A stretch of 64,000 bases of DNA from Snodgrassella alvi (GTDB lineage: Bacteria; Pseudomonadota; Gammaproteobacteria; Burkholderiales; Neisseriaceae): NCBI RefSeq assembly GCF_002777855.1, contig NZ_MEIK01000040.1, positions 248,001 to 312,000 of the forward strand. The letters are read 5' to 3'. Positions within the stretch are counted from its first letter, which is position 1; each line of letters begins with the position of its first letter. A program made the translations under genes and the position numbers. A model generated the notes under the pieces. That model ran no database searches, was not told the DNA's origin, and saw only the letters and a program-made list of their open reading frames with translations. Shown here piece by piece: positions 28,396 through 59,322 of this stretch.

Positions 28396-28574
28396 TACAT
28401 TAGCTCCCTGAAAATCAAACCGGAATATCGCGGCTGTTTAATGGCAGAATCCTGAAAATAAACTGTTTAGTAACTTCTCCTAGTGTAAACAAAGAATGAT
28501 AGTGAATTTCACTTTATTTTTACCAAAAAAAGGTGTATTTTAATAATTTATCACATTCAAACTACAAATTAATC

Positions 28575-29039
28575 ATGCACCAGATTGATAAAGTGGACAT
28601 GAAAATTTTGTCCTTACTGCAAAAAAATGCCCGCACCACCATGACCGAACTGGCCGATAAAGTAGGGTTGTCTACCACACCGGTTACCGAACGAGTACGG
28701 CGGCTGGAACGTGAAAACATCATTACCGGCTATCACGCCCGTCTGAATCCACGTGCCCTGAATCAAAGCCTGCTGGTATTTGTCGAAATCAAACTGCGTT
28801 CTAAATCCGGCAACATCTTCGAGGATTTCCGACGAGAAGTTTTGACCATTCCGCAAGTACTGGAATGCCATCTCATATCTGGCGAATACGATTACCTAAT
28901 TAAAGTGAGATTGCCCAATATGCACGCCTACCGCAATATGCTGGGCAATATATTGCTCCAGCTACCTGCGGCAGCCGAAAGCCGCAGTTATGTGGTAATG
29001 GAAGAAGTAAAAGAAGAACAACTACTACACCTAGAATAA
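28575..29039 (+). CDS. Lrp/AsnC family transcriptional regulator (DadR-like)
   Basis: Regulator of 154 residues. An N-terminal helix-turn-helix (IDKVDMKILSLLQKNARTTM, VGLSTTPVTERVRRLE) is followed by a RAM/ACT-like ligand domain (VFVEIKLRSKSG, CHLISGEYDYLIKVR). Divergent position next to dadA suggests control of D-alanine catabolism in response to alanine, as DadR/Lrp do elsewhere. I choose the ATG (MHQIDK); the frame is open to a GTG 14 codons upstream with GGTG nearby. Confidence 0.9.
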   Translation: MHQIDKVDMKILSLLQKNARTTMTELADKVGLSTTPVTERVRRLERENIITGYHARLNPRALNQSLLVFVEIKLRSKSGNIFEDFRREVLTIPQVLECHLISGEYDYLIKVRLPNMHAYRNMLGNILLQLPAAAESRSYVVMEEVKEEQLLHLE

Positions 29040-29083: not shown

Positions 29084-29959
29084 TCATACTTTATCCTGAA
29101 TCAGCCTGACCAATAACGCTGTTTCATTGTCCAGCTGAGCCTCATCCTGATTTAAAAACAAATATACCGGCGTAGCACGCCGCACACCATATTTTAATGG
29201 TAAAACCTGTAATTCCCCACTGGCCAACTGCGCCTGAATCCGCTCTTCCGGCAGCCAGCCATAGCCTACACCCTGAGTCACAGCCTCAATAGCCGTTTCA
29301 ATTGTGGTGAATGTCCAGTTTTCTGCTGCACTTACTTGCCGGTAGGGTAGCTGCTGCTGTTCGCGGCTAACAATCTCAATCAACGGATAGCGAACCAGTA
29401 CATCCTGACCCAGTGGTGCCGGCAAAGCCAGCAGCGGATGCTTACGCTGCGCCACAGCTACAAAGTTCACCTCTAGCAATAACTTACCCTGACGTATCAT
29501 TTCTGCGCTAGGCGTGATGATGTAGACATCTGCCTGTTGCTGCTGGAGCACAGCACAGCTTTCACTTCGTAGCACTTCTGTCAGATGAATTTGAGTAGAG
29601 GGATAAACCTGTTGAAAACGGCGTAAAACTGTAAACAGACGCGTTTTAGGAAAAATACTGTCCACCACCAAATCTAGCCGTGCCCGCTCACCGCGTTGCA
29701 GCGCACGGGAACGGTTTTCCAGCTTCTCGAACCCCTGCAACAGAGGCAAGGCCTGTGCCAGTAGCTGCTGACCAGACGCTGTCAGCTCTGCCTTGCGGCC
29801 AACAATAGTCAGTAACGTTACACCCAGCCGTTCCTGCATTAACGTCAACTGGTAGCTCAGGGAAGACTGGCTGCGGTTAAAGGCTTCCGCAGCACGGGCA
29901 AAACTGCCATAGCTCACCACAGCCTGTAAAAGCTGCCATTGTTCCAGTGTTGTTTTCAT
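29084..29959 (-). CDS. LysR-family transcriptional regulator, divergent from padC
   Basis: LysR-type protein of 291 residues. The N-terminal winged helix is SFARAAEAFNRSQSSLSYQL and QERLGVTLLTIVGRKAELTA. The effector domain includes LDLVVDSIFPKTRLF and TQGVGYGWLPEERI. It is transcribed away from padC with a 121-base gap holding a perfect palindrome. Phenolic acid decarboxylase genes are often controlled by a neighbouring regulator, so padC control by phenolic acids is the natural inference. Its end converges on the Lrp gene with no obvious terminator. Confidence 0.9.
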   Translation of the reverse strand: MKTTLEQWQLLQAVVSYGSFARAAEAFNRSQSSLSYQLTLMQERLGVTLLTIVGRKAELTASGQQLLAQALPLLQGFEKLENRSRALQRGERARLDLVVDSIFPKTRLFTVLRRFQQVYPSTQIHLTEVLRSESCAVLQQQQADVYIITPSAEMIRQGKLLLEVNFVAVAQRKHPLLALPAPLGQDVLVRYPLIEIVSREQQQLPYRQVSAAENWTFTTIETAIEAVTQGVGYGWLPEERIQAQLASGELQVLPLKYGVRRATPVYLFLNQDEAQLDNETALLVRLIQDKV

Positions 29960-30080: not shown

Positions 30081-30584
30081 ATGTCTGTATTTGATAAAAA
30101 CGATCTGAGCAACATTCTAGGCAAACATTTGGTTTACACCTATGATAATGGTTGGAACTACGAAATATACGTGAAAAATGCCACCACAATCGATTACCGC
30201 ATTCACAGTGGCATAGTGGGCAATCGTTGGGTAAAAAGTCAAAAAGTCTATCTAGTACGGCTGGCTGAAAATGTATACAAAATCTCATGGACCGAACCAA
30301 CCGGTACCGACGTCAGCCTGAGCGTCAACTTGGCCGACAAAATCTTCCACGGTACCATCTTTTTCCCACGTTGGGTAATCAACAATCCGGAAAAAACCGT
30401 TTGCTTCCAGAATGAGCATATTCCACAAATGGAAGCTTACCGAGAAGCTGGTCCGGCCTATCCCACAGAAGTAATTGATGAATTTGCCACCATTACCTTC
30501 ATCCGTGATTGTGGTGAAAATGATGAAAGCATTATTAACTGTCCTGCCAGCGAATTGCCAGCCGATTTTCCGAATAATCTTTAA
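30081..30584 (+). CDS. padC: Phenolic acid decarboxylase
   Basis: Cofactor-free decarboxylase of hydroxycinnamic acids such as p-coumarate and ferulate, giving vinyl phenols. The 167 residues are full length and very close to the Bacillus PadC pattern. Y19 and Y21 (VYTYDNGWNYE), R49 (GNRWVKSQ) and E72 (SWTEPTGTDVSL) match the catalytic Y11, Y13, R41 and E64 of the Bacillus enzyme. FFPRWV and ITVC-type segments are also present. AAAGGA lies ahead of the ATG and a strong terminator follows. Divergent LysR regulator upstream. Confidence 0.96.
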   Translation: MSVFDKNDLSNILGKHLVYTYDNGWNYEIYVKNATTIDYRIHSGIVGNRWVKSQKVYLVRLAENVYKISWTEPTGTDVSLSVNLADKIFHGTIFFPRWVINNPEKTVCFQNEHIPQMEAYREAGPAYPTEVIDEFATITFIRDCGENDESIINCPASELPADFPNNL

Positions 30585-31525: not shown

Positions 31526-31613
31526 CACCTCTTAAGTAACAAACAAAATACAACTAAGAGGTGAATCGAATATGACTTATAAAAATTCCTTTAGCATACT
31601 AAAAAACAGATAA
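31526..31613 (+). other. Inverted repeat hiding a ribosome site, with a 13-codon reading frame
   Basis: CACCTCTTA and TAAGAGGTG form a 9-base inverted repeat with a 20-base loop. The second arm is a ribosome-site-like AGAGGTG, 8 bases before an ATG that opens a 13-codon frame (MTYKNSFSILKNR, stop). A leader peptide or a protein operator are both possible; there is no proof of translation. Confidence 0.3.
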
Positions 31614-31700
31614 AAAAATGCGCACACGATTAAGTGTGCGCCAAGTCTACAAAGGAGAAATAGAGGAGAAACTGTTAAACCAACTAGGAGCTGATTTAAC
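31612..31700 (-). ncRNA. Candidate small regulatory RNA with anti-Shine-Dalgarno motifs
   Basis: About 89 nt on the minus strand. The 5' end would form a stem GUUAAAUC / GGUUUAAC whose loop contains GCUCCU. A pyrimidine-rich single-stranded part follows with two UCUCCU motifs, then a terminator hairpin GCGCACAC / GUGUGCGC (6-base loop) and seven U. A promoter TTGCTA-17-CATAAT lies at the right distance upstream. No convincing coding frame exists. The layout resembles the neisserial NmsR/NgncR_162-163 type of sRNA, which represses mRNAs by pairing with ribosome sites; homology is not shown. Confidence 0.65.
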
Positions 31701-31707
31701 GAAGCGA

Positions 31708-31736
31708 ATTATGCCTCAACTACGCCTGCATAGCAA
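31708..31736 (-). promoter_or_regulatory. Promoter of the candidate sRNA
   Basis: Minus-strand TTGCTA, 17 bases, CATAAT; the predicted start (about 31700) coincides with the first base of the 5' stem-loop. It lies about 140 bases beyond the tyrA stop. Confidence 0.65.
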
Positions 31737-31873: not shown

Positions 31874-32770
31874 TTATCTGCCTGCCGGCACACCTGCTGT
31901 AGCCTGAATCTGCTCATTTTGCCAGCTTTCGCGGATTTTTTGTGCCTTTGCAAAAAAAGCCGTGAGCTTCTGCGCATCACCATCTTGCAGGCATTGCTTC
32001 AAATACGCCAGCTCCTGCTGTTGTTTCTCAAGCAGACCAGCAAGCACCTGTCGGTTCGCCAAACAAATATCCGTCCAGATCTGCGGATGACTGGCGGCAA
32101 TTCGGGTGAAATCCCGAAAACCGCTACCAGCAAATTGTAACAGCTCATCCGCATTAGCTGCTTCCGCCAGCTGATGCACATAGGCATAAGCCAGCATATG
32201 CGGCAAATGGCTTACAGCAGCAAAAATCGCATCATGTCTGGCTGCATCCAGATAATAAATTTGCGCCTGCACCGCTTGCCACATTGCTTCCACAGCCTGC
32301 AAAGCCGTTTTATCCTGCTGCTCATGAGCACAGATAATACATTTTTTTGCAGCAAACAAGCCAAACTGTGCTGCCAGCGCCCCATGACGGTCGGAACCAG
32401 CAATCGGATGTGCCGCCACACAGCGCTCATAATGCTGTGGCAACTCAGCAGCAAAAGCCTGCAAAGCCAGCTGCTTAGTACTGCCCACATCAGTGACAAT
32501 ACATCTATCTGGCAAAAATGGCGCAAGCTGGCGGCAGATAATCGGCAAAGTATTAACTGGCGTAGCGATGAGCACCATATCGGCATCAGCCATACTTTCT
32601 GCATTAATGCATTCGTAGGCACAATCAATTACACGTCGCTCTAGAGCCCGCGTCAGATTGTCAGCATCAATATCAATACCAACCACCTCTTCCACCCGAG
32701 CCGCCCGTTTTAAATCCAGTGCCAGCGAACCACCTATCAGCCCTACCCCAATCAGCACCAGCCTATGCAT
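31874..32770 (-). CDS. tyrA: Prephenate dehydrogenase
   Basis: NAD(P)-dependent oxidative decarboxylation of prephenate to hydroxyphenylpyruvate for tyrosine. The chosen ATG gives 298 residues starting MHRLVLIGVGLIGGSLALDL (the nucleotide-binding loop). Later IVTDVGSTKQ, AAHPIAGSDRHG, FAAVSHLPHMLAY and GSGFRDFTRIA are TyrA signatures. No chorismate mutase or ACT domain is attached, so it is the monofunctional type. A GTG nine codons earlier is possible but lacks a ribosome site. An exonuclease gene lies upstream. Confidence 0.95.
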   Translation of the reverse strand: MHRLVLIGVGLIGGSLALDLKRAARVEEVVGIDIDADNLTRALERRVIDCAYECINAESMADADMVLIATPVNTLPIICRQLAPFLPDRCIVTDVGSTKQLALQAFAAELPQHYERCVAAHPIAGSDRHGALAAQFGLFAAKKCIICAHEQQDKTALQAVEAMWQAVQAQIYYLDAARHDAIFAAVSHLPHMLAYAYVHQLAEAANADELLQFAGSGFRDFTRIAASHPQIWTDICLANRQVLAGLLEKQQQELAYLKQCLQDGDAQKLTAFFAKAQKIRESWQNEQIQATAGVPAGR

Positions 32771-32834
32771 ACTTATCTCAGCAATCATTCTATCCACAAC
32801 ATCATTACCGTGTCCGGCTTATCAACTTTCATCA

Positions 32835-59133: not shown

Positions 59134-59144
59134 CAAATGGGTTT

Positions 59145-59322
59145 CCCCCACATGTGCCGTTTTGGACGCTATCCGCTTGAACCTTGAGGACAAGGCTGGC
59201 AGTATCGAATGGCTTCGGGTTCATTCACACAGAATGCTCACGCCCACCATTACCCAACCGCCAAAAAAGCGAATTATTGGTTCAAAGGAATATATGTCCT
59301 TGCGAACACAGCAGGGGAAGAA
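59145..59322 (-). ncRNA. ssrS: 6S RNA
   Basis: Global regulator that binds sigma70 RNA polymerase in stationary phase. It lies directly after zapA, the usual place in proteobacteria. On the minus strand the 5' part has TGTTCGCAAG then TTGAACC, matching the E. coli 5' arm. GGTGGGCGTGAGCATTC corresponds to the region next to the central bubble, and CCTTG-TCCT-CAAGG forms the 3' bubble hairpin. TTCCCC near the 5' end pairs with GGGGGAA at the 3' end, closing the long rod. The exact ends are estimates. A terminator follows. Several short reading frames on the opposite strand here are accidental. Confidence 0.87.

Follow-up and report, generated by a model that had tools for sequence, protein, structure and literature searches.

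The closest described relatives of the RNA reported here are the sibling small RNAs (sRNAs) of pathogenic Neisseria, NmsRA/NgncR_162 and NmsRB/NgncR_163/RcoF1, which silence metabolic genes by masking the ribosome-binding sites of their mRNAs. In both Neisseria species, these siblings are reported to associate with Hfq, and the genes on which they act belong to the TCA cycle, transport and glycine/serine metabolism (PMC9973317, PMC13104608). In the meningococcus, according to another report, mutating either anti-Shine-Dalgarno (anti-SD) motif of NmsRA abrogated the down-regulation of all targets but GltA; the same report locates the NmsRs of N. meningitidis between dsbB and an oppositely oriented lrp gene that follows directly downstream (PMC5362039). 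Tandem pairing is typical of Neisseria and is not part of the Rfam model RF02877. The LhrC family and other multicopy sRNAs, as the Neisseria papers describe them, likewise present similar sRNAs within one genome that act in a similar way (PMC5362039, PMC9973317).

A further group of relevance is Rfam family RF02278, named "Betaproteobacteria toxic small RNA", which contains double-hairpin RNAs of Burkholderia such as ncS27. In the work on B. cenocepacia, three of four RF02278 RNAs consist of almost only two hairpins, overexpression of ncS27 attenuates growth, and a structural resemblance between NmsR and RF02278 RNAs is already noted (PMC5688073). Our literature search, which included Snodgrassella in combination with sRNA and Hfq and had most subscription papers outside its reach, found no published report of an NmsR-type RNA in Snodgrassella. 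Here, we analyzed a stretch of 64,000 nucleotides from Snodgrassella alvi (the window) and describe the minus-strand segment 31614-31702, which is very probably a single-copy NmsR (NmsRb/NgncR_163/RcoF1) sRNA gene whose product would be an anti-SD repressor of metabolic mRNAs.

Results

The window carries an NmsRb-family sRNA gene with three predicted hairpins

The RF02877 model (NmsRb/NgncR_163/RcoF1) matched the minus strand of the window at 31614-31702 over its full length (model positions 1-91 of 91), with 88.3 bits, an E-value of 1.2e-12 and a family cut-off of 52. The first-pass annotation, made from the sequence alone, had put forward a novel sRNA here and left undecided whether it was a homologue of the NmsRs or a separate invention. 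Because the match is full-length and far over the cut-off, the label "novel" is unsupported; the comparison with the NmsRs was the right lead, and the match settles the question in favor of a homologue. The genome holds a single copy, with no tandem sibling. It sits on the minus strand between an ACT-domain gene and tyrA (prephenate dehydrogenase, 31874-32797, minus strand, Pfam PDH_N/PDH_C), the latter being upstream on the same strand, approximately 170 nt away.

When folded, the segment 31612-31704 gave -29.1 kcal/mol (z = -6.41; equal stability in 0 of 200 shuffles), with three hairpins predicted. The originally proposed layout was right in its promoter, hairpins, two UCUCCU motifs and U-tailed terminator, and wrong in counting two hairpins. 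The sigma-70-type promoter, TTGCTA-17-CATAAT, was confirmed at 31708-31736 (minus strand), its -35 element TTGCTA lying at 31736-31731 and its -10 element CATAAT at 31713-31708, separated by a 17-nt spacer. Position 1 of the RF02877 model falls at 31702, two bases earlier than the start point that had been placed at the stem base, 31700. The first predicted hairpin, SL1 (31674-31700, minus strand), has a 12-bp stem. The first UCUCCU, anti-SD 1, is at 31669-31664 (minus strand) in the SL1-SL2 linker, as had been claimed, and in the predicted fold its last base opens the SL2 stem. The second, anti-SD 2 (31658-31653), had been assigned to the linker as well and lies instead in the 9-nt loop of SL2 (31646-31664, minus strand), above a predicted 5-bp stem. 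SL3, the intrinsic terminator (31641-31612, minus strand), is as first described, an 8-bp stem followed by A and seven U.

A third anti-SD motif, GCUCCU, had been placed in the loop of the first hairpin. The motif is present in SL1 at 31691-31686; half of it lies within the stem, only CCU is in the loop, and the position reads GCUACA in three members of the genus (L073, L075 and L076). We therefore rejected GCUCCU as a third working anti-SD on the grounds of its lack of conservation, which leaves two conserved motifs of the three.

The RNA shares with the published NmsRA/NgncR_162 and NmsRB/NgncR_163/RcoF1 a three-hairpin layout, here a predicted one, and the promoter and terminator, and it has the same two anti-SD sites, in the linker and in the SL2 loop. 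It differs from the Neisseria NmsRs in SL1, in part of the known target set, which was not found in the S. alvi genome (see below), and in copy number, with one copy in 11 of 14 genomes of the genus instead of a tandem pair.

Core, outer hairpins and promoter are conserved among homologues

In total, 55 copies were extracted and 43 were aligned, after removal of 11 identical or near-identical rows and of one RF02278-like sequence (L104). A 22-nt core, UCUCCUCUAUUUCUCCUUUGUA, was invariant in all 43 aligned homologues, which had been retrieved with a model whose score favors that very core; the base that follows it differs in one of the 43. Anti-SD 1 was likewise constant (43/43). SL1 and SL3 varied in a compensatory manner: both-side changes were seen at 11 of 19 base pairs, with 93.9% of cells paired, as compared with only 25-54% in slid controls. 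Cells changed on both sides numbered 78, against 19.6 in shuffles, and on each of five measures the observed value was higher than in all 500 shuffles. SL2 was nearly invariant across the 43 homologues and, since it hardly varies, its pairing has no covariation to support it. A 5-bp SL2 stem was predicted in 44 of 46 distinct homologues, and SL1 and SL3 each had at least seven pairs in all 46 distinct sequences (one SL3 segment, from L095, was mis-cut, and the core of L095 differs). Shuffled 5' parts folded as well in 44 of 2300 cases. Conservation of the hairpins in relatives, on which the first-pass annotation had staked its reading, extends to SL1 and the terminator, both with covariation.

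On its own, the promoter match was at chance level, with one found and 1.3 expected in shuffles. Across homologues, 43 of 50 distinct upstreams carried a suitably placed promoter-like pair, versus 203 of 5000 shuffles. Ten single-copy relatives within the genus were 94-100% identical to the window in the sRNA and 28-93% in the 100 nt downstream; at these same loci the promoter stretch was 72-100% and the sequence further upstream 69-100% identical. The four copies from two genomes of the genus with two copies were 83-87% identical to the window sRNA. The locus had been called non-coding, and we too reject a coding reading, because insertions and deletions in SL1 would shift any frame between homologues while the core stays identical at the nucleotide level.

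The sRNA is widespread in the family, in a neighborhood that is only partly shared

The covariance search of related genomes that had been proposed at the outset yielded RF02877 matches in 74 of 83 Neisseriaceae genomes (at or above the cut-off in 71 of 83) and in none of 14 control genomes, with homologues in 11 of 12 genera from the family. Within Snodgrassella, the 11 genomes with one copy include that of the window; two of the 14 have two copies (G076 and G078), and one genome, 60% complete, has none. Amongst 46 genomes of another genus (g5), two copies were counted in 35, one in eight, three in one and none in two; these counts come from a family-wide search with stricter filters, in which weak copies can be lost. 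An order-wide sample of 300 genomes gave RF02877 matches in 48, of which 23 were over the cut-off, 16 of these 23 being outside the Neisseriaceae. In tandem copies (L072, L074 and L084), the core and SL3 are the same within a genome, and SL1 and the promoters differ, as if the 3' part had been homogenized or SL1 had diverged fast.

A gene for an Lrp/AsnC-family regulator (28533-29039, plus strand, Pfam AsnC_trans_reg) lies downstream of the sRNA. As for the NmsRs, lrp is convergent; here, it is approximately 2.6 kb away, the interval holds genes for an ACT-domain protein, a phenolic acid decarboxylase and a LysR regulator, and dadA comes after lrp. The neighbors were searched by tblastn with the window proteins in flanks of approximately 4 kb, some of which were cut by contig ends. 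In 12 other loci fetched from the genus, tyrA was upstream in all 12 and lrp downstream in eight; in 28 further loci from outside the genus, lrp was near the homologue in four and tyrA in two. Since the two genes recur in only part of the fetched loci, the shared neighborhood is only partial.

Some features of the surrounding sequence were recorded in passing. The phenolic acid decarboxylase gene (30081-30584, plus strand; Pfam PF05870, 290 bits) adjoins the gene for the LysR-type regulator (29084-29959, minus strand), and this stretch between the sRNA and lrp varies among members of the genus. Just 3' of the sRNA terminator is an inverted repeat (31526-31563) with 9-bp arms, CACCTCTTA and TAAGAGGTG, separated by 20 nt. 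These arms did not turn up in any of the 12 other genus loci, and the repeat was rejected as part of the sRNA; the arms were also absent from 20 sampled stretches (400 kb) of the S. alvi genome, and the start of a variant is visible in L065. Elsewhere in the window, a 6S RNA is located at 59141-59320 on the minus strand (Rfam RF00013, 68.6 bits, cut-off 46.4).

Orthologues of known targets do not stand out, and some of the Neisseria regulon appears to be missing

By the proposed mechanism, transcription from the housekeeping promoter would yield an RNA of approximately 90 nt that stops at the intrinsic terminator. Its pair of constant UCUCCU motifs, in the linker and in the SL2 loop, would anneal to the Shine-Dalgarno sites of mRNAs for metabolic proteins, and this pairing would block ribosome binding, probably together with Hfq. 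Because the same two anti-SD motifs are constant here, homology speaks most strongly for a mechanism in which ribosome sites are blocked.

The scan of anti-SD pairing against mRNA start regions, also envisaged in the first-pass annotation, did not bear fruit, as orthologues of known targets were not above background. By duplex energy, gltA ranked 89th, sdhC 93rd and dadA 172nd among 384 called genes; after correction for SD strength, the ranks among the 384 were 174, 216 and 271, respectively. The genes were called by a simple ORF rule in the window and 400 kb of the 2.34-Mb genome, so that starts may be wrong. In the same genome, there was no domain match for sucC, none over the cut-off for GCV_H (20.7 bits versus 22.2), and only a partial one for GCV_T (28.6 bits, model positions 31-132 of 255), along with one citrate synthase and two Sdh_cyt matches. 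Given the missing sucC and GCV_H matches, the partial GCV_T and the one citrate synthase, part of the Neisseria regulon seems, from these domain searches, to be absent from this genome, yet the RNA is kept.

Relation to RF02278

The window sRNA matched RF02278 in the same register with 39.8 bits, and did not reach that family's cut-off of 50; among the matches listed, it was the only one to RF02278 in its genome at E <= 0.001. Common to both are a UCUCCUC linker, a hairpin whose loop contains CUCCU, and a terminator, all in the same register. The SL2 stem is UCUAU/GUAGA here, as against UCCACC/GGUGGA in most RF02278 loci seen. RF02278 has up to nine matches per genome among the matches listed, with a 5' part that differs from locus to locus. 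In the order-wide sample, 40 genomes outside the Neisseriaceae matched RF02877; by comparison of coordinates, RF02278 matched at the same position and in the same register in at least 17 of them.

A model termed R1 was built from the NmsR alignment of 43 of the 55 rows (the 11 identical or near-identical rows and L104 having been dropped), which includes seven sequences from outside the Neisseriaceae. R1 matched all 20 RF02278 loci tested at the expected place with 30.6-52.5 bits, without any other match in the 61 kb searched; on 464 kb of Snodgrassella DNA, it found the window sRNA, the next best score being 13.5 bits. The NmsR and RF02278 cores differ by paired changes in SL2. The curated NmsR model, run on the same 20 loci, gave a match in one at E <= 0.01. 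Sub-threshold matches to anti-hemB (RF02837), at 29-34 bits, also occurred in 10 of the 20 loci, and therefore scores near 30 bits are not specific. Four of seven loci from outside the family that exceed the RF02877 cut-off had no RF02278 match at E <= 0.001, and in one genome (G371) the two models match different contigs. With stricter filters, R1 matched seven of 185 genomes of the class, that of the window included, and missed a genome of the same order (G130) whose RF02278 match exceeds that family's cut-off. On 20 RF02278-like loci outside the order, taken from the better-scoring of 49 genomes, the best R1 scores were 14.6-37.4 bits. These loci (L130-L149) are CU-rich double hairpins from other parts of the class and score under the family cut-off.

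Discussion

By its sequence, the locus is a clear NmsRb homologue and a well-conserved member of a known sRNA family. This reading draws on family membership, predicted structure, covariation in SL1 and SL3, the promoter, the core and the partly conserved neighborhood; transcription, Hfq binding, translational repression and a metabolic role are what the Neisseria work would lead one to expect.

Since tyrA precedes the sRNA by approximately 170 nt on the same strand, the latter might be taken for a cis-acting element or a 3' fragment of the tyrA transcript. We consider this scarcely credible for an RNA with its own promoter conserved at the right distance, and outside the genus tyrA lies near the homologue in only two of 28 fetched loci. 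Convergence, that is, the independent invention of a CU-rich anti-SD sRNA that came to look like an NmsR, would be in keeping with how widespread CU-rich double-hairpin RNAs are: 51 of 185 genomes sampled from the class match RF02278 at E <= 0.001, with only one of the 51 over its cut-off. Other families, too, match the window locus below their thresholds (suhB/mmgR, 24.0 bits). A full-length match of 88.3 bits, however, an invariant 22-nt core that extends beyond the CU motifs, the presence of homologues in 11 of 12 genera and the partly shared gene neighbors make such an origin exceedingly unlikely.

Slightly less remote, but still very improbable, is that the sRNA belongs with RF02278 and is a general, growth-slowing anti-SD RNA rather than a metabolic switch of the NmsR type. 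The 39.8-bit match in the same register, the recognition of 20 of 20 RF02278 loci by the NmsR-based model, and the attenuated growth reported upon overexpression of ncS27 (PMC5688073) speak for it; against it, the locus scores under the RF02278 cut-off and far over that of RF02877.

A separate matter is how the two families relate to each other. We lean, by a small measure, towards RF02877 and RF02278 forming one homologous superfamily across the Burkholderiales, with a constant ribosome-site-blocking core (linker, CUCCU hairpin and terminator) and a 5' part specific to each lineage; most bee-gut Snodgrassella would then have retained it in one copy despite the loss of some of the Neisseria regulon. 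The shared register and the R1 matches to the RF02278 loci speak for this reading. Against it stand the single match of the curated NmsR model and the anti-hemB matches among the 20 loci, the four loci that lack an RF02278 match, the different contigs in G371, and the few class genomes that R1 matched, with G130 missed. On balance, we judge common descent within the order to be likelier than convergence on CU-rich hairpins.

With the NmsR assignment, the range of a metabolic regulator described from pathogenic Neisseria widens to a symbiont of the bee gut, which offers a single-copy form for study. Should the link to the "toxic" RNAs of RF02278 prove true, families that Rfam lists under two names would turn out to be a single ancient regulator, and findings on targets and on growth control would be transferable across the group.
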